A stretch of 32,765 nucleotides of DNA from Spirochaetaceae bacterium (lineage in GTDB: Bacteria; Spirochaetota; Spirochaetia; CADAEX01). The stretch spans positions 1-32,765 of the forward strand of contig WRCW01000005.1 in the NCBI GenBank assembly GCA_009783755.1, written 5' to 3'. The stretch's first letter is position 1; every line of letters begins with the position of its first letter. The position numbers were made by a program, and so were the translations under genes. The notes under the pieces were generated by a model. It was not told the DNA's origin. It saw only the letters and a program-made list of their open reading frames with translations, and ran no database searches. Below, piece after piece: positions 3,446 to 32,262 of this stretch.

Positions 3446-5215
3446 TTATTTTTCCTTACTTGTTTTAGCATTACTCTTTTTGGCTTCAAGATATTTAACT
3501 ACAGCAGGAGAAATTGTTCCAAAAGAACCGTATTCCTTAATATCTTTTGCAAAAATACCTTCAATAACTTCAAAAGCAGTAGGAGTAAAAGGTTGTGGCA
3601 ATTCTTTTATTATCAACTCAGTAATTTTATCAATATCATCCTTTTCATCTGCGTAAAATATTAACAATTCTATTATTTTCACTATATCTAACAAATTTTT
3701 CTTCTTTTCGAGTATCTTGCTCAGTATCCTTTTTATTTCTATATGTCTATATTTTGAATAGCAATCATAAATTAATAAAGGATTTGACTCGGAGACTTTT
3801 TCTAATAAATTTTTTGAATTATCGTAAGTAAATATCTCAAATAATTTTTCTTTCATAAAATGACGCAAACTAACTGAAATAATATCTTGAGCATCAGCAA
3901 CAATATAACCAGCATCAACAGCGTCCTCTATTTGTTCTTTATTTATTAGAATTGCTGGAAGACCAAAAGTAGGGTCTTTAATACATTTACCATCAATCTT
4001 ATTTTTTACACGTCCATTTTCTATACATAAATATTTATTATATTCAATTTCATATTTTATCATCTCTTTGCCACATATATAAAAGGAGTATTCAAATTCT
4101 TTTAGATTAATATTATCCCTTATACGTATTCTTGGTATACATATACCTGTCTCTCTTTCAATTTCTTTATGTATCAATGAAATTCTTTTGAGCAAATTAT
4201 TTTCAAAATATTCATCAACCAGATGTATTAAGCCCAAACCAATTTCTAGCCGTATTATATCATCTTGAATAATTTTCATTTCATTGAGGTTTTGGTTTAT
4301 AGACTTAATCTTTTTTATTATTTCTTCATTAACAGGTTTTAAATCTTGATATAGTATTTTTTTCTCTTCATTAACTGATTTTCTTAAATAAAAACTCACA
4401 GTCATAGATAGCAGTAAAACAGGCAATAAAAAAATTACGCCGCTTCCTATAGCAAGAGGAATATATATTTTTATTGCAGAAAAGATCTCTCCGCCGTGAT
4501 GCAGAATCTCAATTAAGATACCTCCAAGAATTATGATAAAAATTGAAAGTATTATTATTTTATAATATCCAGATACGTAATTAAATCCTCTATCAATTGC
4601 TGAATATAGATTTACTTCTTTCTGAAGTCTCTTTCTATTTTCCATTGCCTCATATTCTGTTATTATGCAACTGGCAAGCTCTGAATTGATTAAGATACTA
4701 TTCTTCGCCATTTTATCAAGAGAAAATCTTGCAGTAACTTCTACAGTATAGGCAGTTCTCTTTAATACTATAACAACAAAAGAAAAAGCTAATAAAAAAC
4801 CTGCAGAGCCTGCGATTAGGTGTACGATATTTCCTGTCCCAGCCACAAGATAAGAAGTACCCCTTATCACCCAGTCATTAAGATCTGAGCCCTCCTTCAA
4901 AACAAGCAATATAACAGGCATTTTAACCACTGCTGTGTTAGAAAATATAAAAATCGATATCAGTATATGAAATATAGAAAAGTCCGTTGTCATATTTTTT
5001 CTACATAACGTCATTATATGAAAAATCATAATTACAAAAAGCAGATTCATTACAATAAAAATATCCATCACTATCGCAGAACGTAAAATTAGGGATGCTG
5101 ATGATACACTAAAAACTACAATCACCCAAATACATATTAACGTAAGAACCCTAATCACCCTAATGCCGGCGAATTTGTTTTTTAATCTGATTAATAAATC
5201 TTTATATTTGCTCAT
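3446..5215 (-). CDS. FlhA-like export-gate protein, divergent, with complete cytoplasmic domain
   Basis: 589 residues, slightly shorter than usual FlhA (about 690). FlhA is the inner-membrane gate of the flagellar type III export machine. The N-terminal half has about eight hydrophobic segments and the family order: DIFIVMNLLF (51-60), DFSIFHILISIF (78-89), TARFSLDKM (161-169), RKRLQKEVNLYSAID (194-208) and the GGILIEILHHGGE segment (231-243). The C-terminal half has RIRDNINL (364-371), KDPTFGLPA (413-421) and the long helical end. AAGGAGT 6-7 bases before the ATG at 5215 decides the start; an ATG at 5287 has no SD. The segment after 'FVKGD' in normal FlhA reads YVSGYYK here, so the aspartate I recall as important in Salmonella (Asp208) is missing. 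A 27-bp control element lies 84 bp upstream. A second copy without the cytoplasmic domain is at 31498. Confidence 0.85.
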   Translation of the reverse strand: MSKYKDLLIRLKNKFAGIRVIRVLTLICIWVIVVFSVSSASLILRSAIVMDIFIVMNLLFVIMIFHIMTLCRKNMTTDFSIFHILISIFIFSNTAVVKMPVILLVLKEGSDLNDWVIRGTSYLVAGTGNIVHLIAGSAGFLLAFSFVVIVLKRTAYTVEVTARFSLDKMAKNSILINSELASCIITEYEAMENRKRLQKEVNLYSAIDRGFNYVSGYYKIIILSIFIIILGGILIEILHHGGEIFSAIKIYIPLAIGSGVIFLLPVLLLSMTVSFYLRKSVNEEKKILYQDLKPVNEEIIKKIKSINQNLNEMKIIQDDIIRLEIGLGLIHLVDEYFENNLLKRISLIHKEIERETGICIPRIRIRDNINLKEFEYSFYICGKEMIKYEIEYNKYLCIENGRVKNKIDGKCIKDPTFGLPAILINKEQIEDAVDAGYIVADAQDIISVSLRHFMKEKLFEIFTYDNSKNLLEKVSESNPLLIYDCYSKYRHIEIKRILSKILEKKKNLLDIVKIIELLIFYADEKDDIDKITELIIKELPQPFTPTAFEVIEGIFAKDIKEYGSFGTISPAVVKYLEAKKSNAKTSKEK

Positions 5216-5298
5216 AATTTTACTCCTTACACACTCCATTAAACGGTTTGCTGTTTTCTGGTTAAGATCCCTATACTTTATTTTCAAATATATACTTT

Positions 5299-7401: not shown

Positions 7402-7632
7402 ATGGGTAAAGAAAAAAGATTAGGGGATATGGCAGGACAAGAGTTAACACAAGCGATTATTGAACAACTTGGTGGTGAAAAAGGAATAGATGCTATTCTA
7501 ATGGAACAAGAAAAATTAGCACAAGAAGCGTTTGCAAAAATGAGAGTTCGAAAACTAGCTCCTGCAGATGGTTCAAAAAACAAAAAAAATAATGCTAAAA
7601 CAAATAAGGAAAATAAGATTAAGGATAGATAA
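7402..7632 (+). CDS. Small GSKNKK-tail protein A
   Basis: 76 residues, mostly helical, with a basic C-terminal tail. An ATG at 7360 is in frame, but GGGGGTG sits about 7 bases before the ATG at 7402, which I prefer. Residues 52-62 read LAPADGSKNKK. The 63-residue protein at 21319 has VPAHGSKNKK in the same place, so the two are paralogs. Both are the first rightward gene after an inverted pair of 27-bp elements with a DUF4116 gene on the other side. This one precedes the FliM-FliN gene by 34 bp. The function is unknown; a small adaptor, chaperone or nucleic-acid-binding protein would fit, but nothing proves any of these. Confidence 0.75.
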   Translation: MGKEKRLGDMAGQELTQAIIEQLGGEKGIDAILMEQEKLAQEAFAKMRVRKLAPADGSKNKKNNAKTNKENKIKDR

Positions 7633-7666
7633 AATAAGAATAAATAAGCAGGAGGATGGAGATAAA

Positions 7667-8938
7667 ATGTCTGTAGTTTTAAATCAAAATCAATTACCCG
7701 CAGCGACAACCATTGAAAACGGGGCAAAAGACTTTGGAGCTGTTTGTGATCATCGGAATATAAGAAATTATGATTTTAAAAAGCCCAATAAATTCACAAA
7801 AGAACAGATTGATGCTATTTCATTAATACATGAAACTTTTGCCCGCCTGGCACGAACCAGCCTTTCTGCCCAGCTTCGTACCGTGGTACATGTAAACCTT
7901 ATTTCTGTTAATCAGCTTACTTATGAAGAGTATATCTCATCCATAGCAATGCCAACTACACTAGCCATTATTGATTTTGATCCTTTAAAGGGGAGTGTTA
8001 TTCTGGAAATTGATCAGTCAATAACGTTTTCAATAATTGATTTCCTTGCCGGAGGCGCTGGAGAAAAATCTGAATTCCAGCATGAACTTACTGATATTGA
8101 AAGATCTATCATGGAAGGGGTTGTTGTCCACTTGCTTGGGAATTTAAGGGCAGCGTGGAGCTCTGTAATTGATTCAAAGCCACGACTTTGTCAAATTGAA
8201 ACAGATTCAAGATTTGCACAAATCGTGCCCTCTGCAGAAATGGCAATACTGGTAACAATGAAAGCTAAAGTCAGGGAAGTGGAGGGGAGGATCAATTTGT
8301 GTATTCCCTACATGACCATGGAGCCAATCATTGGAAAACTTTCAGAACAATACTGCTACTCAGCTTGTTGCAAAGATTCTCCATTTAAAGCTATGCCAAT
8401 TTTTAAAACTATAATTCCTGTAAAATTAACTGCTGAAATATTAAAGCGTAAATATTCTATCAAAGAAATATCTGACTGGAAAGAAGGAACAATTTTATTG
8501 CCAGTACGTCCTTTGGCTCCTGATTCTTGCTTTTTAAGGATCGGGGAGAGAAATATATGGCAATGTGAAATAATAAAAGATACAAAATTGTTACTCAGGC
8601 AAATTAAAGTAGTAAAGCATGTTGAGAAACTGTTTGAAAAGGAGGATTCAAAAATGGAAATAAATAATATGACTGGTTTGCTTAAAGCAGGTATAACAAT
8701 TTCTGTAGAGCTTGGTTCTGCAGAGAAGACAGTTAAAGAAGCCATGGCAATAGGCGAAGGAACAATTATTGAACTTGATACATTAGCCGGAGAACCAGTG
8801 GATGTAAAAGCAAATGGTGTTCTTTTTGGCAAGGGAGAAGTAGTTGTGATAGAAAAAAACCTTGGTGTGAAAATTACCAAAATAATATTTGACCAGGTTG
8901 AAGAAGAAGAAAAAATAGAAGGGAGTCAGAATGATTAG
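7667..8938 (+). CDS. FliM-FliN fusion protein 1 (flagellar switch paralog)
   Basis: 423 residues. Residues 34-230 match the FliM middle domain: NYDFKKPNKFTKEQI, IHETFAR, VNQLTYEEY, RLCQIETDSRFAQIVPSAEM and INLCIPY. Residues 245-320 are the first SPOA domain and 340-410 a FliN-type SPOA domain (VELGSAEKTVKEAMAIGEG, LDTLAGEPVDV, GEVVVIEKNLGVKI). FliM and FliN normally are separate proteins that form the C-ring of the motor. The FliM N-terminal CheY-binding motif (EIDALL type) is absent. The loop that contacts FliG reads GGAG (129-132) instead of GGPG. The start is chosen from AGGAGG 11 bases upstream; the frame extends further up without a better start. An internal SD and ATG allow a separate FliN. 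The stop overlaps the FliG-like gene by 8 bp. Confidence 0.88.
   Translation: MSVVLNQNQLPAATTIENGAKDFGAVCDHRNIRNYDFKKPNKFTKEQIDAISLIHETFARLARTSLSAQLRTVVHVNLISVNQLTYEEYISSIAMPTTLAIIDFDPLKGSVILEIDQSITFSIIDFLAGGAGEKSEFQHELTDIERSIMEGVVVHLLGNLRAAWSSVIDSKPRLCQIETDSRFAQIVPSAEMAILVTMKAKVREVEGRINLCIPYMTMEPIIGKLSEQYCYSACCKDSPFKAMPIFKTIIPVKLTAEILKRKYSIKEISDWKEGTILLPVRPLAPDSCFLRIGERNIWQCEIIKDTKLLLRQIKVVKHVEKLFEKEDSKMEINNMTGLLKAGITISVELGSAEKTVKEAMAIGEGTIIELDTLAGEPVDVKANGVLFGKGEVVVIEKNLGVKITKIIFDQVEEEEKIEGSQND
8639..8656 (+). promoter_or_regulatory. Internal ribosome binding site and ATG for a separate FliN product
   Basis: AAGGAGG ends 8 bases before the in-frame ATG at 8654 (Met330), exactly between the FliM and FliN parts. 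Translation from it would give a 94-residue FliN-like protein ending at 8938. The second fusion gene has the same signal with the same 8-base spacing. Type III secretion SctQ genes are known to make a short C-terminal product from an internal start, so the arrangement has a precedent. Confidence 0.7.
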
Positions 8939-9959
8939 CGCTGCTAGCGTAATGTTATTGGCTTTATTATTGCTAATGTTAATGGTTCTCATACTTGGAG
9001 TTTTGTTCTTTTATTTTAAAAAAGATGTATCGCGACAACTATTTGAAACAAAAAAAACATTGGATAATATGCAAGTTACTTATAATAATTTTTTTAAATC
9101 AACAAACCCTTTTGCTAACTCTTCCGAAGATGAATCAGGATATGTTGATGTCCTTGATTTTTTATCTTCTGCTATAAAAAATCATATTGATAATGTAGTT
9201 GGAGTCATCCGTTTTTTATTAGGACAGAGTGATTGTTCAAAAATTGCTGCTTTTTTTATTGCAATTGGTTCAAAACTATCAGTTGAGATTTTTAAGAATC
9301 TTCAGGAAAATGAAGTCGAGATTATAACATTTGAGGTAGCGTGCTTTGAAAAGATAAATAGTGAGCAAAGAACAACGATTCTTAAAGAATTCTATGAATT
9401 ATTTATGGCTAACCAATATGTTTTTACCGGAGGTATTGATTATGCCCGTGTTCTTCTTGAAAAATCATTTGGAACGATGAAAGCAATTGATATAATTAAT
9501 CGATTAACTTTAAGTCTTAAAACTATGCCATTTGATTTTGTCCGTAGAGTTGAACCTATGCATTTATTAAATTTCATTCAACAAGAACATCCGCAAATAA
9601 TTGCTCTTATTCTCTCACACCTGGAACCTGATAAATCTGCAATTATATTAGAAAAATTACCATCTGAATTACAAGAAGAAATTATTCGGCGAATAGCAAC
9701 AATGAAGAAAACAAGTCCTGAAACTTGCAGAGACATTGAAAGAGAATTAGAAAAAAAGTTATCAACTTTATCAATAGAAGATGAGCCTGCTGTGGGTGGA
9801 CTTGAAAGTGCTGTCAAAATATTAAGTCTTATTAATTCTGGTTCTGAAAAGCAGATAATAAAAATCCTTAAAGATAAAGATCCGAAATTAGCTGATAAGA
9901 TCGAGAAAAGTGGAATAAAAAAATCAGGAGATAGCAAGGAATGGTTTTATGAAAAATAA
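8931..9959 (+). CDS. Membrane-anchored FliG N/M-domain protein lacking the C-terminal domain
   Basis: 342 residues. Residues 5-29 are one strong membrane helix, followed by a linker. From about residue 100 the protein matches FliG N-terminal and middle domains: SKLSVEIFKNLQENEVEIITFEVA, then FTGGIDYARVLLEKSFG (165-181), LLNFIQQEHPQIIALILSHL (212-231) and RRIATMKKTSPE (253-264). The FliM-binding EHPQ (219-222) with Arg254 is kept. The protein stops at 'KDPKLADKIEKSGIKK', just where FliG would run into its C-terminal domain. That domain is found at the start of the next gene, which overlaps this one by 11 bp in another frame. FliG is normally soluble, so the membrane helix is odd; it may replace the FliF anchor. 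GGGAG lies upstream of the ATG. Confidence 0.87.
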   Translation: MISAASVMLLALLLLMLMVLILGVLFFYFKKDVSRQLFETKKTLDNMQVTYNNFFKSTNPFANSSEDESGYVDVLDFLSSAIKNHIDNVVGVIRFLLGQSDCSKIAAFFIAIGSKLSVEIFKNLQENEVEIITFEVACFEKINSEQRTTILKEFYELFMANQYVFTGGIDYARVLLEKSFGTMKAIDIINRLTLSLKTMPFDFVRRVEPMHLLNFIQQEHPQIIALILSHLEPDKSAIILEKLPSELQEEIIRRIATMKKTSPETCRDIERELEKKLSTLSIEDEPAVGGLESAVKILSLINSGSEKQIIKILKDKDPKLADKIEKSGIKKSGDSKEWFYEK

Positions 9960-11988
9960 TAAGAAAAATAAAGTTTTTACATTTGAGGATATTATTTTTC
10001 TTGATGATTTTAGTTTGCGAAGAGTTGTAAAGGAAATAGAAGAAGAAGATCTGGAAAATGCTTTTATAGGAGCAGAGGAGCAAGTAGTGGCAAAGGTTTT
10101 AGAGTTCATGTCCTACTTGTCGGCGAAAGAACTTAACCAGTTGATTAAAACATCCGGACAGGATGTTTTAAAATCTTCCATTGAATTGAGCAGAGAAAGG
10201 ATTGGCAATATAATAACGAGCTTTGTGGGGAGAGGCAGAATTCTTTCTCCCGATGGCTGGAGAGTGCCGGCGAGAGATGGCGTTATTCGCCAGATTGAAG
10301 AAGCAATACAAACAGGGCATCTTGATTTGTATAATTGGTATTGCCAAAAAAATGCCTATTCCGGTTTTGAGGAAGTAGTAAAAAGCGCATTTGATTCATT
10401 CAAAGACCGCGAAAAAGAGCTTTCTGCTATTACTTCTCTTAAAATAAAAGGAGAAATCCTTTACAGCGCCGAATTGCTATTTAGCAGGAATTCGCTTGAA
10501 CATCTTGTTATTAGTTATGATAATATTTTGATTCCTTGTACATTGCTTCCTGCATCGCTTTTAAAACCGATTGGACAATGTAAAAACTTGAAAAGCTTGG
10601 TTTATTCCACGCCATATTTGGACTTGCCTGAATGGATATTTGATTTAACATCATTGACAGATCTTTTTCTTGGCGGTAGTCATCTTGATGGGAAAAGTAT
10701 TACTGCTTTATCAGAAAGGTTAGGTAATCTGATCAATCTGAAAACATTATCTTTAAATTACATGGACATTGACTGTGTTCCCGATAATATCGTGAATCTT
10801 GAGCGATTGGAATATTTAGAGATTTCAAGGTGCCGTATAACATCACTTCCTGAAAATATTGGAAAACTTACAGAGCTTAAAAGGCTTGATATAAGCGGAA
10901 CCTCTGTTGCAAACCTACCGGAGAGTATTGGGTCTCTTACAAAACTTTTAAAACTCGATATAAGTAATACACTTATTACGCACCTTCCTGAAAGCATTGC
11001 AAAACTTATATCGCTTAGGAAACTTGACATAAGGGATACCTGCATACGCGAGCTGCCTCTTTTTCTTGAAAATCTGTATGGACTAAGCATTTGTATGTAT
11101 GGACTTGATGCAAAAATACCTCCTGCGCTTCCGCAGAATAAAAATATAACCTTCAACCGCGAATATAAAATAGAAACACTTCCTCCTCATGACCTGAATT
11201 TAGATGAGTTTATTCGTGCATATTATATGTTTATTCAGGATATATATTATGTTAATCCAATGGCAAGAAGAATGGGGCTTATGGAATTAGAAGATTTTTT
11301 TAGAGATTTATATGAAAAAAATGATTTTTTTGGAGTAGGTATGATGTTGGTAATTGATGGAACAGATCCGGAAAATATTCGTCATATTTTGTCTTGTAAG
11401 ATTGAGCATGAAAACTGCTTTTTAAAAAAGAAATTAAGAAAGATACAGATGGAAGGAATTCTGGGAATCCAGAGGGGCGATGATACAATAGAACTTATTT
11501 TGTACCTAAATAATCTTGTTGATATTGATGGGAATAAAGTTACCCTTTTGTGTAAAGATTACTGGCAAGGAAAACAGAATGCTTTTGAAGACCTTGAAGA
11601 TATTCGCCATGAACTTCCAAAAGAGAGGGAAGAGGTTGCGTTTATCAAGCGGGCAACTAAGATACACAAGATTGCCTGGGACAATGGGCTTTTGGCGCTG
11701 GAAGCAGAATGGAACAGAGAAGGATATGATAATAATGACATATTTGAATATGGGATTCCTCTTGTGATTGATGATTATTTAGGGGCGCATCATATCGAAA
11801 GCCAACTTAACGCCATGATTGAGCGGGAACATAACCCATGGAAAAAGAAAATGGGGCAGGTGAAAAAAACAGCAGTCATGGCTATTCTGGCAGGGGATAT
11901 TCCAAGAATGGTTGAGGAAAAATTATTGTGTTACTTTGATGACAATGTTTTAAGGATTTTAAAAGCGGATCAGGCACGGGAAGAATAG
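9949..11988 (+). CDS. FliG_C-LRR-MotA-like chimera 1
   Basis: 679 residues, no membrane helix. Residues 8-100 match the FliG C-terminal domain (KVFTFEDIIFLDDFSLRRV, then DLENAFIGAEEQV and the end RIGNIITSFVGRGRIL). Residues about 185-395 are leucine-rich repeats of about 23 residues (LPESIGSLTKLLKLDISNT type). Residues 425-520 resemble the MotA cytoplasmic loop joined directly to the MotA tail: ARRMGLMELED, LVIDGTDPENIRHIL, MEGILGIQRGD. Residues 560-672 repeat this pattern (GLLALEA, PLVIDD, AVMAILAGDIPRMVEEKLL). MotA is the stator protein that touches FliG_C. By eye, the acidic pair of the FliG torque helix is replaced here (LNQL). AAGGA lies 8 bases before the ATG. It follows the FliG N/M gene with overlap, so the two are probably translationally coupled. 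A paralog follows at 12949. Confidence 0.85.
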   Translation: MKNNKKNKVFTFEDIIFLDDFSLRRVVKEIEEEDLENAFIGAEEQVVAKVLEFMSYLSAKELNQLIKTSGQDVLKSSIELSRERIGNIITSFVGRGRILSPDGWRVPARDGVIRQIEEAIQTGHLDLYNWYCQKNAYSGFEEVVKSAFDSFKDREKELSAITSLKIKGEILYSAELLFSRNSLEHLVISYDNILIPCTLLPASLLKPIGQCKNLKSLVYSTPYLDLPEWIFDLTSLTDLFLGGSHLDGKSITALSERLGNLINLKTLSLNYMDIDCVPDNIVNLERLEYLEISRCRITSLPENIGKLTELKRLDISGTSVANLPESIGSLTKLLKLDISNTLITHLPESIAKLISLRKLDIRDTCIRELPLFLENLYGLSICMYGLDAKIPPALPQNKNITFNREYKIETLPPHDLNLDEFIRAYYMFIQDIYYVNPMARRMGLMELEDFFRDLYEKNDFFGVGMMLVIDGTDPENIRHILSCKIEHENCFLKKKLRKIQMEGILGIQRGDDTIELILYLNNLVDIDGNKVTLLCKDYWQGKQNAFEDLEDIRHELPKEREEVAFIKRATKIHKIAWDNGLLALEAEWNREGYDNNDIFEYGIPLVIDDYLGAHHIESQLNAMIEREHNPWKKKMGQVKKTAVMAILAGDIPRMVEEKLLCYFDDNVLRILKADQAREE

Positions 11989-12948: not shown

Positions 12949-15171
12949 GTGGAGAAAAAAGTTTTTACATTTGAGGATATTATTCATCTTGATGATCGTG
13001 CTATATGGAGGATTCTGCGGGAAACAAATATTGAATATCTGCGAGATGCTCTTATTGGAGCTGAGGAAACGATATTAGAAAAGATATATAAAAATATCTC
13101 ACCTCGTATAATAGAAAGATTAAAAAAGATGGTGAAAGAAGCTGAACAGGATTATATATCTCAAGATACCATTAACGAGAGAAGAGGAGGAATTGTCTAT
13201 CATACTATAGTGGGGCTTGCGACAAAAGGAGAAATTGTTTTGCCCGATAATCTAAAACTCCCGACGAGAGGATACAAAGCTCATGCACAAGATAGCAGTA
13301 GAATATTGACGAAAGATAACGTCGTTCATCGGATTGAAAAAGCAATACAAACAGGTCATCTTGATTTATATAATTGGGATTGCAAAGAAAAGCCAATTTC
13401 TGATTTTGAGGAGACAATAAAAAATGCATTTGATTTATTCAAAGGCCATGAAAAAGAGCTTTCTGCAATTACTTCTCTTGTAATTAATGGAGCGATCCTT
13501 TATGGCGCTGAACTGCTATTCAGCTTAAATACACTTGAAGATCTTGATATTAATTATAGGGGCACCTCGAAACATGGGATACCTCCTCGCAACATGCCGC
13601 AGGTATCGCTTTCAAAACCAATTGGGGAATGTAGAAACTTGAAAAAGCTTTCTTTTTCTACACCATATTCAGGGTTACCGGAATGGATATTTAGCTTAAC
13701 ATCATTAACAGACCTTTGCCTGGGTGATTATTGGTTTGAAAATAAAAGCATTATTAGTTTACCGGAGAGCCTAGGGAATCTGAGCAATCTGAAATTATTA
13801 TCTTTGAGATTAATGGAAATTACCTCTCTTCCGGACAGTATAACAAATCTTAAGCACTTGAAATACTTGGAGATTTCATCGAGGAGAATAATGTCGCTTC
13901 CGGAAAGTATTGGAAACCTTACAACTCTTGAAGAGTTGCATATAGACATACCTATTAAAGTTCTGCCGGAAAGTATTCGCAATCTTACAAACCTTTTAGA
14001 ACTTACTATAAACTATACTAATATTATATACTTGCCGGAAAATATTGGCAGCCTCACAAACCTTGTAAATCTTGGATTAATTTCTAACAAATCAATGGAA
14101 AAACTTCCTGATGCCATTGGCAATCTTTTATCACTTAGGAGAATGTCTGTTTGTTGGTCTGCTATAAAAGAATTACCAAAAAGCATGGCAAACCTTAAAT
14201 CCCTTAGAGAACTTGCTATACGCTATACCGGCATACAGGAGATTCCTTCTTTCCTTGGAAGCCTATCAGATCTAACTATTTCGATGTCAGGACTAGATGC
14301 AGAAATTCCTCCTGAGCTTTTACAAAATAAAGATATAAATATTTATCCCAACCCAAAACATAAAATAAAAATACTACCTCATCACGAAATGAATTTTGAT
14401 GAATTCATTCACGCCTATTATGAGTTTATTCGTGATGCTTATTATTATTCCTGTATGGCGAGGAGAGAAGGTCTATTGGCACTGGAAGAATATTTGAATA
14501 ATTCAAATGATTTTTTTAACATTGGATTAAGATTAGTCGTTGATGGAACAGATCCTGAGCTTGTACGAAAAATGCTTACATGCAAGCTTGAACGAGAACA
14601 TGACTTTCTGAAAAATAAACTTAGACAGGTGCAGATGGAAGCACTCTTAAGTATTCAGATAGGAGAGATCCCGGAAGAACTTATTTTACGACTTAATCAA
14701 CGTGTTGATATTGATGGCAATAAAGTAACTCCATTGTGCAATGATTATTTGAAAGGAAATCTTAATGCGCTTGATGATCTCGAAGATCTTCATCATGAAC
14801 TCCCACCGGAACGGGAAGAGGTGGCTTTTATCGAGCGAGCTGTTAGTATATCTGAGAAAGCCAGAAGAGAAGGGATACCGGCACTGGAAGATGAACGGAG
14901 CAGTGAAGGGTACGCTGAGGGAGATATTTTTGAATATGGGCTTTCTCTTATAATAGATGATTTAAGCCCACGTTATATCGAAGCAGTACTGGATGCAATG
15001 ATTAAGCGGGAACGCTGTCCATGGAAAAAGAAAATGGGGCAGGTGAAAAAAGCAGCAGTCCTCTCCATTCAGTCCTATGATAACCCGCGCATACTGGAGG
15101 AACATTTAATGTGCTACTTTGACGACGATGTCCGCAGCTTTTTAAAAGAAGCTTGCTCCAGGGAAGAATAG
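12949..15171 (+). CDS. FliG_C-LRR-MotA-like chimera 2
   Basis: 740 residues, GTG start 7 bases after AAGGAG. Same domain order as chimera 1. FliG_C spans residues 4-98 (KVFTFEDIIHLDDRAIWRILRE, ALIGAEE, IYKNISPR, ATKGEIVLP). The LRRs run from about 195 to 455 (LPESIGNLTTLEELHI type). MotA-like segment 1 is at 490-585 with ARREGLLALEE (504-514), LVVDGTDPELVRKML (529-543) and MEALLSIQIGE (563-573). MotA-like segment 2 is at 625-732 with ARREGIPALED (638-648), LIIDDLSPRYIEAVL (667-681) and LSIQSYDNPRILEEHL (705-720). In both segments the Arg and Glu matching E. coli MotA Arg90 and Glu98 are kept, while MotA membrane helices 3 and 4 are missing. The RDD of the FliG torque helix reads KKM here. The gene ends 58 bp from the convergent DUF4116 gene, with no clear terminator between. 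Confidence 0.87.
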   Translation: MEKKVFTFEDIIHLDDRAIWRILRETNIEYLRDALIGAEETILEKIYKNISPRIIERLKKMVKEAEQDYISQDTINERRGGIVYHTIVGLATKGEIVLPDNLKLPTRGYKAHAQDSSRILTKDNVVHRIEKAIQTGHLDLYNWDCKEKPISDFEETIKNAFDLFKGHEKELSAITSLVINGAILYGAELLFSLNTLEDLDINYRGTSKHGIPPRNMPQVSLSKPIGECRNLKKLSFSTPYSGLPEWIFSLTSLTDLCLGDYWFENKSIISLPESLGNLSNLKLLSLRLMEITSLPDSITNLKHLKYLEISSRRIMSLPESIGNLTTLEELHIDIPIKVLPESIRNLTNLLELTINYTNIIYLPENIGSLTNLVNLGLISNKSMEKLPDAIGNLLSLRRMSVCWSAIKELPKSMANLKSLRELAIRYTGIQEIPSFLGSLSDLTISMSGLDAEIPPELLQNKDINIYPNPKHKIKILPHHEMNFDEFIHAYYEFIRDAYYYSCMARREGLLALEEYLNNSNDFFNIGLRLVVDGTDPELVRKMLTCKLEREHDFLKNKLRQVQMEALLSIQIGEIPEELILRLNQRVDIDGNKVTPLCNDYLKGNLNALDDLEDLHHELPPEREEVAFIERAVSISEKARREGIPALEDERSSEGYAEGDIFEYGLSLIIDDLSPRYIEAVLDAMIKRERCPWKKKMGQVKKAAVLSIQSYDNPRILEEHLMCYFDDDVRSFLKEACSREE

Positions 15172-16725: not shown

Positions 16726-16753
16726 TTTATTGTTCCTTAAAATAAATATAATT

Positions 16754-17485
16754 TTAATCACTATAGATGATTTTTTCTTTTGGAATATCATCAAAATGCA
16801 TTATGCGTCGTGAAAGTATGATTTTTTGTAAATTGTTGCCTTTCCAAAATGCCGGACTTCCAAGGGCAAATACAGATGCCGGTATTGTAAGCTCTGTTAA
16901 ATTCTTACAACCATCAAATGCTGAGTCATCAAAGGCTGTTACTGATGAAGGTATGATATATGTTTTTGCTTTTTTATTACTCGAATATGCTATGATATTT
17001 TTTTCCTCTTTATCAAAAAGCACTCCATCAATGCTTGTATAATTTGGATTTTGCGGATCTACTATTATATTTGCCAATTTATAGCAATGGTCGAATGCAA
17101 AATCGCCAATGTGTGTTACTGAAGATGGAATCGTAATCTTTTCTAAATTTATGCAATACCGGAAAGCATAATGCTTAATGCATGTTACAGATGGGGGAAT
17201 TATAATTTCTCTTAAATTCATACAATCGTTGAGTGCCATATGCCTAATGGAGGTTACTGCTAATCCAAAGATTTTATCGGGAATAGCTAAAGATAGATCG
17301 CTTTTACAGCAATTGACAAGCTCAAGACTTTCTCCATCAAGTTCAAAATTCATATTATTTTTTTCAAGAGTTTTATTTGTATAGTAAACCTGAATCCCCA
17401 TACGTTTAGCATGATTTTTATATTTTTCTGCTATTTTTTTTGTTTTAAAAGAAACTGTATTGTTCCCATCTGTTAATATATGCAT
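16754..17485 (-). CDS. BspA-like LRR_5 protein, short
   Basis: 243 residues. The first 60 residues are a separate domain (HILTDGNNTVSF...) with no signal peptide; then come about six LRR_5 repeats such as NLREIIIPPSVTCIKHYAFRYC and NLEKITIPSSVTHIGDFAFDHC. Surface versions of this repeat (Treponema and Tannerella BspA) bind host or bacterial partners, but this protein has no visible export signal, so it is either cytoplasmic or sent out by another route. GAGGAG lies 8 bases before the ATG at 17485; the upstream ATG at 17503 comes before that SD. It is the first gene of a two-gene unit with the DUF4116 gene, and a 27-bp element starts 43 bp upstream. Confidence 0.8.
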   Translation of the reverse strand: MHILTDGNNTVSFKTKKIAEKYKNHAKRMGIQVYYTNKTLEKNNMNFELDGESLELVNCCKSDLSLAIPDKIFGLAVTSIRHMALNDCMNLREIIIPPSVTCIKHYAFRYCINLEKITIPSSVTHIGDFAFDHCYKLANIIVDPQNPNYTSIDGVLFDKEEKNIIAYSSNKKAKTYIIPSSVTAFDDSAFDGCKNLTELTIPASVFALGSPAFWKGNNLQKIILSRRIMHFDDIPKEKIIYSD

Positions 17486-18477: not shown

Positions 18478-18526
18478 ACTATTCTCCTTACCCATATAGT
18501 TTTTAAATAACAAAACACATTTTATT

Positions 18527-18842: not shown

Positions 18843-20264
18843 TTACCTTATAGTGCATAGCGGTCCCAGATAAAAAGGATCTTCATCCGGGTTTTCCCCG
18901 GAAGATTCGTCTTGCTGTTTAATAGGATTGCTTTCCGAAGTCTTTCCCATTACACAGTTTGTGACTCTTACTCCTAAATTTTCATCTATTACAACAACCT
19001 CGCCATGAGCAACAAGTACATTATTGGCAAAAATATCTATTGGTTCACCTGCCAATTTTTCCAGTGTGAGGATTCTCCCTTCGGACATACTTAATAATTC
19101 TTCCATGGTCAACTCTGTTCTTCCAAGTTCAACAATACATTGGATTTTCATTTGTCCCATGGCTTCTTCCCTGTTCTTTGCTGTTGCGTAGTTTACATTC
19201 TTTTTCATTATGCCGACCTCCTTAAAATCGCATTGTTTTTCGATAATTATTTTTTTGTTAAATACAGGATTTGTTTTAAGTATCCTTGCTGTAAATAATT
19301 GTATTCCATCAATGCAGAGTGTGTATTGGTTTGGATCTAAATTTTCATAGGGATAGATTATTGTCCCGGGCTTCCACTCTGATAATTCGCTATAGAGTAT
19401 TTCTTTTTCAAAAAGTATTGCATTAGCGCTCATTTTAACATTACGCAAAGATTCAGGATTTATACGCTGGCGTTGTTTTGAAGTACCTCCAGTTGAGTAC
19501 CAGTTTTTTCTTGTGAGTTCATCCAGGATACTTTCTAGTGATAGATATGGAATGCAAATGTTTATCATTCCTTCAACACCACAAAATTCAATTTCAATAT
19601 CTATGAGGATAACCATTTCATTTGGCGGGACGAGTTGCACAAATGTCGGGTTTGTTTCAATATGGCTTAGTTTTGGTTTTATAACAGCAAATGGCTCCCA
19701 TGCTGAGCGAAAACATTCCAGTAGTCCAATAACTGGTTTTTGCATTGTAAAATTTTCAAGCGCAGTCAAGGTTATATCTTTCCTGTGTACGAAACCATTA
19801 ATATCACCTGGGCCGCCAAATATTTTATTCAACATGGCAGAATATACCGAAGGATCAATTTCAATGCAGGCAGTTCCACCTGTCTCTTCCATGTTTATTA
19901 TTCCAAGCAATGTAGGTATTGGAATAGAACAGATGAATTCCTCGTATGACAACTGGTCAACAGAGGCAACATGACAATGAACATCTTTTCTGAATTGCCT
20001 GGAAAGATACTCTGTTGCTTTTCGGACAAAAGTTTCATGGATCATGGTAATTGACCGTATTTGTTCTTTGGAAAACTTATCCAGTCTTTTGAAATCATAA
20101 ATTTTTATTTTACGCACATTTTTATAAAATGAATTATAGGCATCTTCTTCGCCTTCCTCGGAAGGAGTGGAAAAGGCTGTAAGCAACTGATCGATTTCAT
20201 TTTGGCTTAGAATATCACATTTAAAAACATCATCAATGATATCCTCTTCTTTGTCTTTTTCCAT
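18843..20264 (-). CDS. FliM-FliN fusion protein 2 (flagellar switch paralog)
   Basis: 473 residues. Unlike copy 1 it keeps the FliM N-terminal CheY-binding motif, [11 protein letters not shown] at residues 18-28. The FliM middle domain spans about 55-250 ([32 protein letters not shown] at 148-154, [26 protein letters not shown]). SPOA domain 1 is at about 277-345. The FliN part is at 375-440 ([44 protein letters not shown]). After it comes an acidic tail of about 30 residues. GGPG, the FliG-contacting loop, is kept. AAGGAG sits 8 bases before the ATG. It follows a DUF4116 gene by 16 bp and precedes the FliG-M-like gene. It carries an internal FliN start at 19208. Confidence 0.9.
19206..19223 (-). 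promoter_or_regulatory. Internal ribosome binding site and ATG for a separate FliN product (copy 2)
   Basis: On the minus strand AAGGAGG (19223-19217) stands 8 bases before the in-frame ATG at 19208 (Met353). The product would be a 121-residue FliN with an acidic tail, ending at 18843. The spacing and place equal those in the first fusion gene although the surrounding bases differ, which argues for selection. Confidence 0.72.
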
Positions 20265-20280: not shown

Positions 20281-21156
20281 TTAAATTATGCCAATATTCC
20301 TTTGCGGATTTTTCCCTGCTGCAATGCTGTAAAGTTCCATACTCTTTATCTCTTCAGGTACAAACTCATCTGACTTTTCATGGTACGCCACAGCAAAACA
20401 GCACAGCTGTAAGCTCTTTAGTTCTTCTGGCACATACCGGATCGCATAACCATTCTGCATCACTGCAATGTAGCAAAGTTCCTTTGTCCTGAATTTTTCA
20501 GGTACATCTCCCAGACCTAAACCATACTTCTTTACAGCTATACGGCAGAGTTTAAAAGTTTTTAGTTCTTCAGGTACAAAATTAAGCGCGCTGCCATCAT
20601 TTTTCACAGCCATAAGGCATAGCTCTTCTGTCTTAAACTTTTCTGGAACATGCAAAAGCGCCCATCCATCATTTTTCACAGCAATGTGGCACAGTTCTTT
20701 TGTTTTAAACTTTTCCGGCACAAGCTCAAGCATACTGCCATCTTTTTCAATAGCAATACGGCATAGTTCTTCTCTCCTGAATTCTTCAGGAACATCTAAA
20801 ATCGTCCAATAATCTTTCTCCATAGCAGAGAGGTATATTCCATATAGTTCTTCACTATTGAGTTCCCATGGCAAAAACTTAAGAGCCTTGATGTTTTCTA
20901 ACAAAGCAGCACAGTATATCTCCTCTGTTAAGAGTTCTTTTGGTATAAGTTTAAGAGCATTTCCATCTTTTTTTGCAGCAATATGACAAAGTTCTGTTGT
21001 CATAAGTTTTTTTGGTACAAACATAAGTGCTCTATAGTCCTTTTCCACAGCAATACGGCATATTTCTGCAGATTTGAGTTCTTCTGGTATAAACAAAAAC
21101 GCCCAAAAGCCTTTTTTTATTGCAGAGAGGGCCTTCTTTTCGCTTGTGATTACCAT
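20281..21156 (-). CDS. DUF4116 repeat protein, about 11 repeats
   Basis: 291 residues. The start [16 protein letters not shown] is the shared DUF4116 head. About eleven 24-residue repeats follow ([23 protein letters not shown] type); the fourth is longer and irregular ([25 protein letters not shown]). AGGAG lies 7-8 bases before the ATG. It is the first gene left of the inverted element pair at 21.2 kb and leads the operon with FliM-FliN 2. No signal peptide or membrane helix. Confidence 0.83.
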
Positions 21157-26116: not shown

Positions 26117-28264
26117 TCATGTTAGAAAGCCTATTCTTGTTTCAGGCTTTTCCAGCAGTTCTTCTTCGCAAAAGGTTTTTAGATCGGACAAGCAAGGAAC
26201 TGCTCCACGCAGGATAAAGGAAACCATACTTTTACGAGAGATATTTTCTATCTGACCGCCAGAAAAATCAAACTGTTTTGCCAGTTGAATAGCATCATTG
26301 TCTGCGAGAGCAGGAAGCTGGCTTTTCCATATCATTTTTTTTGACTCAATGTCCGGTTTCCCAAATTCGATCTTATAAAGAAAACGACGCTCAAATGCTT
26401 TGTCAAAATTCATTGTCATATTGGTAGTGGCAATGAGAATTCCATTAAGGTTTTCCATTTCCTGAAGGATAATATTCTGTATGGCGTTCTCGGTTTGAGC
26501 AAGATTGGATCTTGAAATATCTTTTCGTTTACCGAAAACAGCATCTGCTTCGTTAAATAGTAAAATTGGAGTTATTTCTGCTTCTTCAACATAGTCACGA
26601 TAGCGGGTGAAAATTTCTTTTATTTTCTTTTCACTCTCTCCAAACCACATGCTTTTTGTTTCAGAAATATCAACAGCTAAGATATCTCTGCCTGTTTGTT
26701 TGGCAATCTGATAAACTGTTTCGGTTTTTCCTGTACCTGCTTGCCCGGAGAAAAGGCATGCAAAACCTGTTCTCATTCCGGAATCTGAAAGCCGTGTTTT
26801 TATTTCTTTATACGCACTATCGTTAAGGAGAGATATCAACTGCTCTACCTGAGTTCTCTCTTTTGCGTTGTAAAATAATTCTTTAGTATGAATTGTCGAG
26901 GCTCGGATTATATCTTTATGATTGCGTGAAGATTTTATTTTTAATTCTGATAACAGATCATTTTTTATGTTAGTCGTTAGCTTGAATAATTCCCGGTTTC
27001 CAAATCCATTGCTGTTGGCAAATTCAACAAACCCACGAATCATAAGAATATGTTCACCTAATTTAAATTGTCGTCTACTTATCCCAAAGTCAGAATCTTG
27101 CTCATATATGGCTGATATTGTATTGAAATCTAATTCATCACGATCACAGTTAATATATAAATGGCAGAAACGTAGCAGAAGTAAAAAATCTTCTTGGGAA
27201 AGTTCATATCCAAAGATTTTTTTTACAAAGATAAGATGCATATTCTCTTTTAGCAGTTCGTTGATTCTTGTTGAAAGTTCATTATAAGATATCCTGTCTT
27301 GGCAGCACTCTTCAAATAATGAATGCATTCTCACAAACAGTTCAGTATTCGACAAATTTGACTGACTAACAGGTTTGTATTCTTCGTTCTTCATCAGGGA
27401 AACCATTACTTCTTTAGGAATGCTATATGAAGCTACATCGCTTGCAGAGAAACCAAATCTCCTTCGGTTAGATTTGGGGGAAATCCGAATAAGTTTTTTT
27501 TGTTCAAGTTCTTCAAAATCGCTCATATACTGCATAAGTTTTAGTTTACTGCAATCAAGAGATCTGGCGATTTCTCGCAACTCTACCGGAGTGGTTTCAA
27601 ATTCTGAAACAATATGGGAAAATAAAACAGCCTGGATCTGAGAAATATTCAATTTTTGAGTGATATGTTTTATATGCGTCATAGCACTTAAAATAGAATT
27701 CTCAGAAAGATCGTTTTTTTCTGTTAATTTAACAATTTGCTCTACATGTCCCAGAAGATTTAATTCTTTTTGCTTCGTTGTCAGAGCAATGATTTTTTCT
27801 GAAAGTCTCGATATATTATTTCCTTTAATAATACAATTCTCAAGATTGGGAAGGTTATTGATTGTTTCCGGCAATTCAGAAAGCTGATTATAGCTGATAT
27901 CAAGAGAACGTAGAGAGTTAAGTTCTCCAATAGATTCTGGAATTTCCCTTAAATTGTTACACTTGAAATTTAATTTTTTTAGACAAGTCAGCCTGCTTAT
28001 TGATTGTGGCAGAATTGAAAGCTTATTGTAACTAAGATCAATATACTCAAGCTTATCAAGTGAGCATAAAAAGTCCGGTAATTCTGAGATTGAATTTTCG
28101 CTTAACTTCAGAACTTCAAGATATTTTAATTTTTTTACCTCTTCTGGAATTGCTGTAAGTTCAATGTCAGAAAGATCTAAAATACTTAAATGCCTATCAT
28201 GGCATATATTTATAAGACTTTCTGCTTCATTGATAACTTTATTCTGTTCCTGTATGTTTGTCAT
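26117..28264 (-). CDS. LRR-AAA+ ATPase
   Basis: 715 residues. Residues 25-160 hold about five leucine-rich repeats (LEVLKLSENSISELP type). The middle (about 190-480) is helical, with a part that looks like a winged helix (about 215-285). The C-terminal AAA+ domain has Walker A GQAGTGKT (507-514), Walker B PILLFNEAD (566-574), sensor TTN (613-615) and an arginine pair RR (626-627). Asn in place of the first Walker B Asp is, as I recall, common in this AAA subgroup. AAAGGAGC 6-7 bases before the ATG at 28264 favours this start over one seven codons upstream. It is the first gene of the operon AAA-BspA-WYL-DUF2779. LRR plus ATPase suggests a sensor or remodeller that recognises a partner, as in STAND-like proteins, but the target is unknown. 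Confidence 0.83.
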   Translation of the reverse strand: MTNIQEQNKVINEAESLINICHDRHLSILDLSDIELTAIPEEVKKLKYLEVLKLSENSISELPDFLCSLDKLEYIDLSYNKLSILPQSISRLTCLKKLNFKCNNLREIPESIGELNSLRSLDISYNQLSELPETINNLPNLENCIIKGNNISRLSEKIIALTTKQKELNLLGHVEQIVKLTEKNDLSENSILSAMTHIKHITQKLNISQIQAVLFSHIVSEFETTPVELREIARSLDCSKLKLMQYMSDFEELEQKKLIRISPKSNRRRFGFSASDVASYSIPKEVMVSLMKNEEYKPVSQSNLSNTELFVRMHSLFEECCQDRISYNELSTRINELLKENMHLIFVKKIFGYELSQEDFLLLLRFCHLYINCDRDELDFNTISAIYEQDSDFGISRRQFKLGEHILMIRGFVEFANSNGFGNRELFKLTTNIKNDLLSELKIKSSRNHKDIIRASTIHTKELFYNAKERTQVEQLISLLNDSAYKEIKTRLSDSGMRTGFACLFSGQAGTGKTETVYQIAKQTGRDILAVDISETKSMWFGESEKKIKEIFTRYRDYVEEAEITPILLFNEADAVFGKRKDISRSNLAQTENAIQNIILQEMENLNGILIATTNMTMNFDKAFERRFLYKIEFGKPDIESKKMIWKSQLPALADNDAIQLAKQFDFSGGQIENISRKSMVSFILRGAVPCLSDLKTFCEEELLEKPETRIGFLT

Positions 28265-28328
28265 TTTTTTGCTCCTTTTTTTCATTAGCAGCTTTTCCTG
28301 ATTTATTCGTGCTTTATGTATAGCACTA

Positions 28329-28473: not shown

Positions 28474-28800
28474 ATGAATATCACAACAGAAGAAGAAGCT
28501 CTTGAGTCTGTGAAAAAAGATGGGGATAGAGCACTTAAGTATATACCAGAAGAACTAAAGACGGAAAAGCTCTGTCACATTGCCGTAGAACAGAATGCCA
28601 GAGAACTTGAATATGTGCCAAAACCGCTAAAAACAGAGAAACATTGTTATATCGCTGTGAATAATAATGGAGAGTCCTTTTTGCATGTTCCGGATAAACT
28701 AAAAACCATAGAGATCTGTTTTATTGCAATAATACAAAATAGTTATAGCAGTGCTATTAAATATGTGCCGGAAAAATATAAAAAAATGAGGTTAACATGA
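28474..28800 (+). CDS. DUF4116 repeat protein, short (about 4 repeats)
   Basis: 108 residues, starting with MNITTEEEALESVKKDG, the shared head of these proteins. About four repeats follow (ALKYIPEELKTEKLCHIAVEQN). AGAAGGAAGG lies before the ATG. The next gene overlaps its stop by four bases (ATGA), a sign of translational coupling. It may be a reduced copy of the longer DUF4116 proteins. Confidence 0.8.
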   Translation: MNITTEEEALESVKKDGDRALKYIPEELKTEKLCHIAVEQNARELEYVPKPLKTEKHCYIAVNNNGESFLHVPDKLKTIEICFIAIIQNSYSSAIKYVPEKYKKMRLT

Positions 28801-29521: not shown

Positions 29522-30763
29522 ATGCAAATATTTTCCAGTGAAAAGATTCCAATTATGTGTTGGGCAGGAGAAGTAGAACCAAATTGCCTGGAGCAGGCTA
29601 AAAACCTGGCAAACTTGCCTTATGCTTTTCATCATATCGCCTTGATGCCCGATGTGCATTTTGGTATGGGTATACCTATTGGTGGAATATTGGCTGCTAA
29701 AAATGTGGTTGTGCCAAATGCTGTTGGTACAGATATTGGCTGTTCTGTTTCTGCCTATCGGGTAAATACGACAATTGAAAATTTCAGCAAAGAATTATTA
29801 AAAGAGATTATGGGCGATATTCGAAAGGTTTTTCCTGTGGGCGAGGCAAGGTACCCGCCAAAAGACAAAGGAGTAGTTAAGTTTTTTGAGAAACTGGAAA
29901 ATGTTTCGGAAATACAAAATGAGGATTTGAAAAGTTATTTATCTTCGGAACAATTCAAAACAGTGTATCTGCGTCAAGACACTGAGCTAAAAAGAATTAT
30001 TAGAAAAATGTTTGAATGTTTGCCAAGCATGGGCGGCGGGAATCATTTTTTGGAAATACAAAAAGAAAATAACGAAACAGGCAATATTTGGATAATGACT
30101 CATTTTGGTTCCAGAGGACTTGGCGCGGAAACTTGTAGGAAATTCAATAATATTGCCAGAAAAATTAATGAAGAGCATGGCTGTCCTGTGCCGGATGAAT
30201 TAAAGCTTAGCGGTTTGGCTTTGGACTCTCAGGCTGGAAAGGAGTACTGGGATATGATGACTTTAAGTTTACAATATGCGCGTCTTAACCATTTATTTAC
30301 CAAAGAAATCTTGAGAAGTGTTTTACGCGACAAAGGGCTTGATTTTCTGGATGAGCATTTTATTCATCATAATTACGCGGCAAAAGAAACCCATTTTGGC
30401 GAAGAGGTAGTTGTGCATCGTAAAGGGGCGACATCTGCCAAGTTGGATGAGTTGGGTATTATACCAGGTTCAATGGGTACCTCGTCTTATTTGGTAAAAG
30501 GTTTAGGCGAGCCTAATTCATACATGTCTTGTTCGCATGGCGCAGGAAGGAAATTTGGCAGAGCAAAAGCAATGGAAACTTTGGATCTGGCAGAAGAAAT
30601 AGCGAAAATGGAAAAACTGGGTGTAGTGCATGGTCTGCGCAATAAAAACGATTTAGAAGAAGCAGATGGCGCCTATAAAAATATAAAAGATGTTTTAGCT
30701 GAGGAACAGGATTTGGTTAAAGTAGTGCTGGAATTAAAACCTCTAGGTGTGATTAAGGGGTAG
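29522..30763 (+). CDS. rtcB: RtcB RNA-splicing ligase family protein
   Basis: 413 residues. RtcB joins RNA ends with a 2',3'-cyclic phosphate (or 3'-phosphate) and a 5'-OH, using GTP and manganese. Visible signature blocks: PDVHFGMGIPIGG (43-55), VGTDIGCSV (68-76, with metal ligands Asp71 and Cys74), GGGNHFLEI (171-179), THFGSRGLG (193-201), HHNYA (282-286), HRKGAT (299-304), GSMGTSSY (316-323) and SHGAGR (338-343), whose His339 would carry GMP. All catalytic residues I know of are present. AGGAGG lies 5 bases before the ATG. No rtcA or archease gene is next to it. Its promoter region is a copy of the one before the short DUF4116 gene, so it may answer to the same regulator. Confidence 0.95.
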   Translation: MQIFSSEKIPIMCWAGEVEPNCLEQAKNLANLPYAFHHIALMPDVHFGMGIPIGGILAAKNVVVPNAVGTDIGCSVSAYRVNTTIENFSKELLKEIMGDIRKVFPVGEARYPPKDKGVVKFFEKLENVSEIQNEDLKSYLSSEQFKTVYLRQDTELKRIIRKMFECLPSMGGGNHFLEIQKENNETGNIWIMTHFGSRGLGAETCRKFNNIARKINEEHGCPVPDELKLSGLALDSQAGKEYWDMMTLSLQYARLNHLFTKEILRSVLRDKGLDFLDEHFIHHNYAAKETHFGEEVVVHRKGATSAKLDELGIIPGSMGTSSYLVKGLGEPNSYMSCSHGAGRKFGRAKAMETLDLAEEIAKMEKLGVVHGLRNKNDLEEADGAYKNIKDVLAEEQDLVKVVLELKPLGVIKG

Positions 30764-30790: not shown

Positions 30791-31483
30791 ATGGGATGGC
30801 TTAATGATTTTTGTAATAAATATGAGTGGTGGAGGAAGGAGAAACTGAATTCCTCTCTTAGTCTTTTCTTGAACTCTTTATATTGCACATTTCGTGGATG
30901 GACTCCTGTTTTTAAGGTGAGGATGTTCCTTCAGAAGATTTTCAGGAAAGACCATCTCAATGATTTTGAAAATTGGAATTGCGGGTCCTATATTGCGAAG
31001 GATATCCTTAGACGACTCAGGGCGTACAAGAGAATGAACAGGCATGGCTATCCGGTAAGTTTCGTCGAATATGAGGATTCCAGTATGTCCATGGAAGAAT
31101 ATAATAAGCGTATCGAGAGTGGAGAGTGGGAGGGCGGAGGTCCCGATGCATGGGAGATTGTTCTAGACACAATGATAATCTCCTTTGAGTATATAGTTGA
31201 GGTTGACCGCCATTACGGTTCCAAGAGGGCGCATGAGTGGTATATAAAGCATTATGGTATGGATCCCCATGATGAGACTAACGAGTGTAATAAAATGGAG
31301 AGTTGGGATCACGAGATAGAGAACGATGATGGGTCAAGCACTAATAGGTGCGAGCGTGTTAAGACCGATGGTTACACCTATAAAGTTTCCTACTGCAACT
31401 ACGAGTTGGAAAAATATATATCTGAGGATCAGGAATATGGCTTGTATTTATTCAGCAAATATTTTCAGACGATATGGGACTAA
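30791..31483 (+). CDS. Unrecognised protein of a phage-like family
   Basis: 230 residues, 27 bp behind rtcB. The pattern 'YIAKDILRRLRAYKRMNRHGYPVSF ... W-E-I-V-L-D-T-M-I-I-S-F-E-Y ... GLYLFSKYFQTIWD' resembles uncharacterised phage proteins in which a 'PRLKxFK...GYP' segment is followed by 'W-x-x-x-L-D-x-M-I' and a 'LF-x-K-Y-x-x-x-L-W' end. The region in between (about 85-125) is acidic and glycine-rich. No membrane helix. The gene is less AT-rich than the LRR-system genes. It probably shares a transcript with rtcB; the role is unknown. Confidence 0.7.
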   Translation: MGWLNDFCNKYEWWRKEKLNSSLSLFLNSLYCTFRGWTPVFKVRMFLQKIFRKDHLNDFENWNCGSYIAKDILRRLRAYKRMNRHGYPVSFVEYEDSSMSMEEYNKRIESGEWEGGGPDAWEIVLDTMIISFEYIVEVDRHYGSKRAHEWYIKHYGMDPHDETNECNKMESWDHEIENDDGSSTNRCERVKTDGYTYKVSYCNYELEKYISEDQEYGLYLFSKYFQTIWD

Positions 31484-31497
31484 GGAGAGGCGTATTT

Positions 31498-32262
31498 ATG
31501 AGCAAAGACATAGTACTAGTTGGGGGGGAGATTGTATTTTTATTAATAGCGCTTTTTTTACCTTTCCATGGGATAGTAGTTGATATTTTTATAGTAATGA
31601 ATCTGCTTTTTGCAATTATGATTTTAAGAATAGCCCTTCTCAGAAAAGAAATAATGGACTTTCCTACACTTCCTACACTTCTGTTGATATTTGTGATTAT
31701 TAGCATAGCTGTTAATATTTCTGTTGTAAGGCTTGTTTTATCTATGGGTGCAGATCTTAATGACTGGGTGATAAGGGGTGTTTCCTATCTTATGGCAGGG
31801 GCAGGCTATATCGCGCACCTGATTGCAGGATCTGTGGTTTTTATATTTACTGTTGTTTTTGTGGTTATAAAATTAAAGCGAACTAACCGCATGGCGGAAG
31901 CAACTGCAAGGTTTTTTCTTGATGGAATGGTGGCAAAAAATATGTCAATTGATTCAGAACTTGCAAGAGAATGGATTGTCGAATACGAGGTAATGGAAAA
32001 GAGAAAAAGAGTTCAGAAAGAAGTAGCTTTATATTCAGCAATGGATGGTGTATCTAAATTTGTGTCTGGTCATATTAAGATAATAATAATTTCAATTTTT
32101 GTCATAATTCTGGGAGGTGTTTTAATTGAGGTTCTGTATCGCGGCGAAGAGATAATTTCTGCAATAAAAATCTATCTTCCTCTTTCTATTGGAAGCGGTA
32201 TAGTTTTTTTACTTCCTGTTTTTCTAGTGCTTGCGGCTGTGGGTTTTATTTTTAAAAAATAA
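31498..32262 (+). CDS. FlhA-like membrane domain without cytoplasmic domain
   Basis: 254 residues. It aligns over its whole length with residues 20-275 of the FlhA-like protein at 3446: VVDIFIVMNLLFAIMI (27-42), DFPTLPTLLLIF (54-65), ATARFFLDGM (135-144), RKRVQKEVALYSAMDG (169-184) and GGVLIEVLYRGEE (206-218). The stop comes after the last membrane helices (FIFKK), so the FlhA cytoplasmic domain that binds chaperones and substrates is missing; I see no remnant of it downstream. The 'FVSGHIK' segment has His where normal FlhA has Asp. AAGGAGAGG 7 bases before the ATG at 31498 sets the start, 14 bp after the previous stop. Either a truncated relic kept in frame or a real gate-only protein; the clean SD favours expression. 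Confidence 0.83.
   Translation: MSKDIVLVGGEIVFLLIALFLPFHGIVVDIFIVMNLLFAIMILRIALLRKEIMDFPTLPTLLLIFVIISIAVNISVVRLVLSMGADLNDWVIRGVSYLMAGAGYIAHLIAGSVVFIFTVVFVVIKLKRTNRMAEATARFFLDGMVAKNMSIDSELAREWIVEYEVMEKRKRVQKEVALYSAMDGVSKFVSGHIKIIIISIFVIILGGVLIEVLYRGEEIISAIKIYLPLSIGSGIVFLLPVFLVLAAVGFIFKK

Follow-up and report, generated by a model that had tools for sequence, protein, structure and literature searches.

What could an FlhA that stops after its sixth membrane helix do in a bacterium that also carries a complete flhA? The question is raised by a 254-residue gene, here called SHORT, which a first-pass annotation made from the letters alone had singled out as an unusual, membrane-only FlhA. It lies at 31498..32262 on the forward strand of the window, the whole 32,765-nucleotide stretch that we analysed, which is the entire contig C5 of a 2.1-Mb spirochaete MAG (247 contigs; estimated 90.5% complete, with 7% contamination).

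Extent of SHORT and its setting in the genome

The open reading frame is genuine: SHORT residues 16-252 match positions 2-235 of the 657-position PF00771 FHIPEP profile (E=6.1e-51). Against the FlhA equivalog TIGR01398 the protein scores 165.5 bits, short of the cut-off of 772.1, and against TIGR01399 (SctV/HrcV) it scores less still, 135.8 bits. As had been claimed, it has its own Shine-Dalgarno sequence (AGGAG, 31483-31487, forward strand), placed 10 nt 5' of the ATG and overlapping the stop codon of the upstream gene (31481-31483). Hydropathy and alignment with canonical FlhA give TM1-TM6, TM4 and TM5 being separated by the cytoplasmic FHIPEP loop, and put the C-terminus at the R270-equivalent residue, directly past TM6. 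Canonical FlhA continues from here into the TM7-TM8 hairpin, a linker and the ring-forming cytoplasmic domain, all of which SHORT lacks; no residue aligns to E. coli 272-329, where TM7-TM8 lie (~285-330). The protein therefore does not end right after the last membrane helix, as the first-pass annotation had it, but after helix 6 of 8. An AlphaFold model from a three-row alignment had a pLDDT of 44, too low for use, and a promoter and terminator scan around the gene found no more sites than in shuffled sequence.

A frameshift near 32262 was the obvious worry. When three FlhA cytoplasmic domains were searched against the window tail by tblastn, one chance antisense match was returned (E=1.1), and the nucleotide homology between SHORT and its longer paralog in the window, LONG (75% identity), ends within 4 nt of the SHORT stop codon. 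The earlier statement that no remnant of the cytoplasmic domain follows thus holds and, because no FlhA_C similarity lies downstream in any frame, no frameshift at this point could restore the C-terminal domain; on the same ground we rejected an assembly artefact at 32262. Taken more broadly, to include misassembly, a stop codon created by sequencing error or a binned contig of foreign origin, the artefact explanation can draw on the contamination estimate and on the composition of C5, whose tetranucleotides have a mean correlation of 0.54-0.62 with the bin's own contigs (0.75 among those contigs themselves), making it an outlier. Contigs C99 and C136 also correlate less with the bin, both being short, which by itself lowers the value. 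In addition, the genomes of the genus hold no close relative of the leuC on C5. C5 is thus possibly a recently acquired region or a foreign contig that stems from a related organism, and the diagnostic sites described below, which link SHORT to the FlhA of its own genus, argue that such a source would lie near that genus. However, a foreign contig would alter the host and not the gene, there is no FlhA_C downstream to be restored, and eight other genomes share the design, so that we consider an artefact highly improbable.

The gene is not simply a second FlhA copy, as first described. A canonical flhA of 705 aa lies on contig C16, and the flagellar operon order flhB-flhA-flhF-flhG, like the outcome of the class-wide searches, fits the spirochaete assignment. 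LONG (3446..5287, reverse strand) encodes 613 aa in which profile search and alignment show TM1-TM6 joined straight to FlhA_C (profile 312-553); the last part of FlhA_C is unmatched, and several conserved charges are gone, among them R94, R147 and K203. LONG, at first described as full-length, thus also lacks TM7-TM8. SHORT, which keeps those three charges, is closer to normal FlhA (41% identity to its best canonical match, versus 37% for LONG), as had been noticed from individual blocks. Further pieces lie on contig C99, which carries a frameshifted FlhA paralog and a cytoplasm-only FlhA gene (C99:4534-5874) that has a ribosome-binding site of its own and encodes 446 aa, matching profile positions 314-557 only. 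The latter protein also carries an extra C-terminal region of unassigned type.

The homology of this cytoplasm-only gene to LONG begins within 4 bp of the point where that of SHORT ends, and three homology ends (the end of SHORT, the start of the C-only gene and the end of the C99 membrane copy) fall within ~12 bp on LONG; the TM6/FlhA_C junction is therefore the point at which the modules part. Such a coincidence would suit a split FlhA, with SHORT supplying the membrane part and the C99 gene supplying FlhA_C. We nevertheless give this arrangement very little credence: TM7-TM8 are absent from both halves, the C-only protein covers just the cytoplasmic part of the profile, the residues of the proton path have gone, the two genes lie on separate contigs, and a non-systematic look at SHORT-type relatives revealed no C-only partner.

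SHORT stands outside any flagellar operon. It follows, by 14 nt, a 230-aa gene on the same strand (30791..31483, forward) with a weak phrog_11543 match, and judging from the spacing the two are probably co-transcribed. Ahead of these, after a 27-nt gap, lies another forward-strand gene (29522..30763) that we take from its sequence to be RtcB-like.

Elsewhere the window holds altered copies of other flagellar genes. Profile searches identified two FliM paralogs, of 456 aa (7568..8938, forward; PF02154, E=4.9e-66) and 473 aa (18843..20264, reverse), both located outside flagellar operons, both with a C-terminal FliMN_C domain, and 45-49% identical to canonical FliM of the same genome and of genome G002. 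A FliG paralog (8931..9959, forward) carries a hydrophobic N-terminal segment together with FliG_N and FliG_M but lacks FliG_C. It is followed by a FliG_C domain fused to leucine-rich repeats (9949..11988, forward) and by a second such fusion (12949..15171, forward); FliG is thus split and re-fused across 8931-15171. Arrays of DUF4116 repeats occur at 5333-7150, 15229-16794, 20281-21156 and 28474-28800 and also on G000:C136, and all 37 repeat matches in the genome are on C5 and C136. A domain of unassigned function is common to window positions 17635-18513 and C99 3664-4509 (65% identity); on C99 it comes after a stretch that matches LONG's tail, which suggests domain shuffling between C5 and C99.

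This company raises the alternative that the C5 flagellar paralogs (LONG, the membrane-anchored FliG-N/M protein, the FliG_C-LRR proteins and the two FliMs) form a membrane assembly that does not secrete but has been repurposed, with SHORT as a member and LRR or DUF4116 proteins as partners. The selection of genes is suggestive, since C5 and C99 add further copies only of FlhA, FliG, FliM and the SpoA domain, without FliF, FliI, FlhB, MotAB or others (about one third of the genome was covered). SHORT, however, is more than 11 kb from the nearest FliG or FliM gene, in an apparent operon with the RtcB-like and 230-aa genes, and none of the seven short-FlhA loci examined in genus g93 adjoins a recognisable FliG or FliM paralog. 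Thus, we think it unlikely that SHORT serves such an assembly.

Residues kept and lost

A recent description of the FlhA membrane ring, a 2026 cryo-EM preprint, provides a frame for reading the truncated protein (PMC13308203). There, TM2-6 form the core, TM1 packs against one adjacent protomer and TM7-8 against the second; R147, R154, D158 and D199 make up an inner charged ring, and a proton path runs through N137, Q254, D249, D208 and R85, of which N137, Q254 and D249 are needed (PMC13308203). In the injectisome homolog SctV, TM5 and TM6 self-associate (PMC8369761). Export is abolished in Salmonella by each of the substitutions R94A, D208A and D249A, and the mutant proteins, where not dominant-negative, at least fail to complement; dominant mutants must still enter the export apparatus, and the export-dead, dominant-negative D249A protein is hence still incorporated (PMC3139655).

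We compared SHORT with 76 distinct full-length spirochaete FlhAs, using E. coli numbering. D45, Gln at 137, R147, R154, D158, D199, K203, D249 and Q254 are each present in 76/76 of these. All seven conserved charged residues (D45, R94, R147, R154, D158, D199 and K203) are retained in SHORT: the residue corresponding to E. coli and Salmonella R94 is R79 (31732..31734, forward), and the FHIPEP loop, residues ~128-191 (31879..32070, forward), contains the R147, R154, D158, D199 and K203 equivalents. The three proton-path positions, in contrast, have all changed. There is no amide at 137, S233 occupies the position of D249 (32194..32196, forward), which is essential in published work (PMC3139655, PMC13308203), and F237-L238 stand at positions 253-254 (32206..32211, forward), so that Gln137, Asp249 and Gln254 are lost. 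SHORT is an FlhA paralog reduced to TM1-TM6 and the FHIPEP loop, with the proton-path residues gone and the inner charged ring retained. Read against the structure, its sequence corresponds to the ring core minus the proton path and minus one neighbour-packing element. The first-pass annotation had missed both the loss of TM7-TM8 and that of the proton-path residues, as well as the parallel cases described below.

A further change affects the second glycine of the TM5 GxxxG motif. At the G227 position, glycine in 76/76 canonical FlhAs, SHORT has E211 (32128..32130, forward), and the residue is also acidic in LONG, in the C99 copy and in three relatives. Together with N219I and S253F, G227E/D is common to SHORT, LONG, C99 and the short genes of genomes G392, G539 and G562. 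Among 11 short or paralog forms, D249 is retained solely in that of genome G460 and Q254 solely in that of G534.

The table also bears on spirochaete FlhA in general. Across 75 full-length proteins, position 85 is G or S (one N) and position 208 is N (one S, one T), and these proteins lack the R85-D208 salt bridge on which the FlhA proton path is described as centring.

Short FlhA genes in other spirochaetes

Searches of ~580 spirochaete genomes (395 class members, 200 of family f42 and 40 of genus g93) showed that membrane-only FlhA is rare but recurrent: such genes are present in at least nine, the source genome and at least eight others, counts that are lower bounds as degenerate copies rank below canonical FlhAs in match lists. 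Membrane-only versions are thus as unusual as had been supposed, and looking for homologs of about 250 residues, as the first-pass annotation had proposed, yielded genes with the same cut point. In all eight other genomes the FlhA-like part ends ~0-19 residues past the R270 position, and each also has a full-length FlhA elsewhere. The products measure 267 aa (G392), 265 aa (G539), 259 aa (G534), 291 aa (G561), 262 aa (G549) and 259 aa (G547), the G549 and G547 genes occupying the same chromosomal place before the same run of genes. That of G562 is 374 aa long, owing to an unrelated C-terminal domain. In G460 (C151), a 284-aa membrane-only gene stands in tandem before the intact flhA, its 3' end overlapping the flhA start; the two are 79% identical (dN/dS 0.43), which marks the short gene as recent and independent in origin. 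It retains D249, yet already has S253F and Q254L.

Three genomes of SHORT's own genus carry only canonical FlhA, and the apparently short frames of G045, G171, G419 and G466 are contig ends or an interrupted full-length gene. Next to the membrane-core fusion of G562 (G562:C99 1709-2833) lies an AAA ATPase gene (2864-4576); its product shares 44% identity with the LRR-AAA protein encoded at 26117-28285 of the window. A phage origin for SHORT, pursued from a phrog_12657 match (E=1e-24), was not upheld: INPHARED matches were distant (30-45% identity) and resembled bacterial DNA in phage records, and two scans of viral contigs found no relative. A plasmid origin was likewise discarded, all matches being below 60% identity and those listed mostly annotated as FlhA or SctV.

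We consider these genes probably functional as a family, given their patterns of substitution. The G392, G539 and G562 branches have an omega of 0.145, and omega=1 is rejected (LRT 166.8, p=4e-38), although this value would partly reflect a full-length past if the truncations were separate. For the type-C shorts the branch test was saturated (branch lengths >20) and was not used. The apparently separate origins in other spirochaetes also suggest that the short copies are used. For SHORT itself, function is only suggested. Its branch omega of 0.39 is not different from 1 (LRT 1.28, p=0.26), its dN/dS against LONG is ~0.68 (dS 0.47), and LONG looks relaxed (omega 1.4). Moreover, in the alignment read by eye, the SHORT stop codon, TAA, aligns with a serine codon, TCA, of LONG; this and the modest dS make a fairly recent truncation of this particular copy possible. 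The two refuting outcomes named by the first-pass annotation, assembly error and homologs pointing to a recent truncation, were not borne out: there is no frameshift remnant, and relatives cut at the same place exist.

All of this could be read as a truncated duplicate drifting towards a pseudogene, particularly since the related C99 copy is frameshifted and LONG has lost conserved charges. Against decay, the 254 codons are open even though ~3.8 nonsense changes would be expected on the SHORT branch under neutrality (157 sense substitutions; Poisson chance of none ~2%). Random decay would also not be expected to keep 7/7 charged positions while changing 3/3 of the proton path, other lineages share the cut point and the replacements, and purifying selection on three relatives is strong. 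We therefore regard decay as a doubtful account of SHORT.

Whether the short genes share one origin depends on which evidence is followed. In a maximum-likelihood tree, SHORT and LONG fall together with the short genes of g93 (support 99/97), and an AU test does not reject descent of SHORT from own-genus FlhA (p=0.159). At 16 diagnostic sites, which separate own-genus from f42 canonical FlhAs, the ratio of own-genus-like to f42-like residues is 6:1 for SHORT and 6:0 for the C99 copy, versus 2:8 for G539 and 0:9 for G562. Two origins at the least are certain, since the G460 tandem copy arose on its own, and the diagnostic sites favour three or more. SHORT and the g93 shorts may share ancestry by transfer; this has the tree in its favour, but the diagnostic sites contradict it and the AU test does not settle the matter. 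The grouping in the tree would be accounted for by long branches together with parallel replacements, and we lean towards convergence, parallel evolution appearing more likely than common ancestry.

Proposed role and relation to known systems

What, then, might SHORT do? It would retain the ring-building core, without the packing of TM7-TM8 on the neighbouring protomer. Because the ring core is kept but the neighbour-packing helices are absent, SHORT would most likely enter, cap or compete with the FlhA nonamer, and proton-driven flagellar export could be lowered or tuned as it is with Salmonella D249A. We tentatively favour this reading, a non-conducting FlhA membrane module acting on the nonamer, as a serious possibility. 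SHORT would then possibly be a natural counterpart of the dominant-negative D249A protein. Such a decoy fits the dominance of D249A, the retention of the ring's charged residues and the placing of the G460 gene in tandem with intact flhA. Several observations pull the other way: selection on the SHORT branch is not distinguishable from neutrality, the state of LONG and the C99 copy indicates ongoing decay within the family, the acidic residue at G227 might weaken packing with normal FlhA, SHORT is outside the flagellar operons, and the tree would leave fewer independent origins, a point on which the AU test does not decide. More speculatively, spirochaetes may have repeatedly and convergently evolved a six-helix, non-conducting decoy that brakes or caps export from within the nonamer, the same TM6 replacements (S253F, Q254 to a hydrophobic residue, loss of D249) having been selected in separate lineages. 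We hold this bolder form with considerable reserve.

Natural ring-core modules without the proton path bear on the problem of how FlhA converts proton flow into export. They set the building of the ring apart from proton conduction, and the short FlhAs are ready-made tools with which the roles of helices and residues can be tested. Their repeated evolution at one cut point marks TM1-TM6 as a separable unit. Full-text literature searches, covering work outside subscription journals, found no report of a membrane-only FlhA.

Like FlhA (TIGR01398/PF00771), SHORT is homologous over TM1-TM6 and the FHIPEP loop and keeps the inner charged ring; unlike FlhA, it has neither TM7-TM8 nor FlhA_C, lacks D249, Q254 and the amide at 137, and scores far below the equivalog cut-off. 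It has lost the same TM6 aspartate as Salmonella FlhA D249A, which incorporates but blocks export (PMC3139655), although the latter is a full-length laboratory mutant and not a natural truncated gene. SctV/HrcV belongs to the same membrane fold family, but SHORT scores lower against it than against FlhA, and no further injectisome gene was recognised in the window. Finally, FlhX of Campylobacterota, a stand-alone FlhB-like fragment related to the C-terminal part of FlhB, is likewise a natural stand-alone piece of the export gate beside an intact gene; unlike SHORT, it is a piece of FlhB, and represents the cytoplasmic rather than the membrane part.
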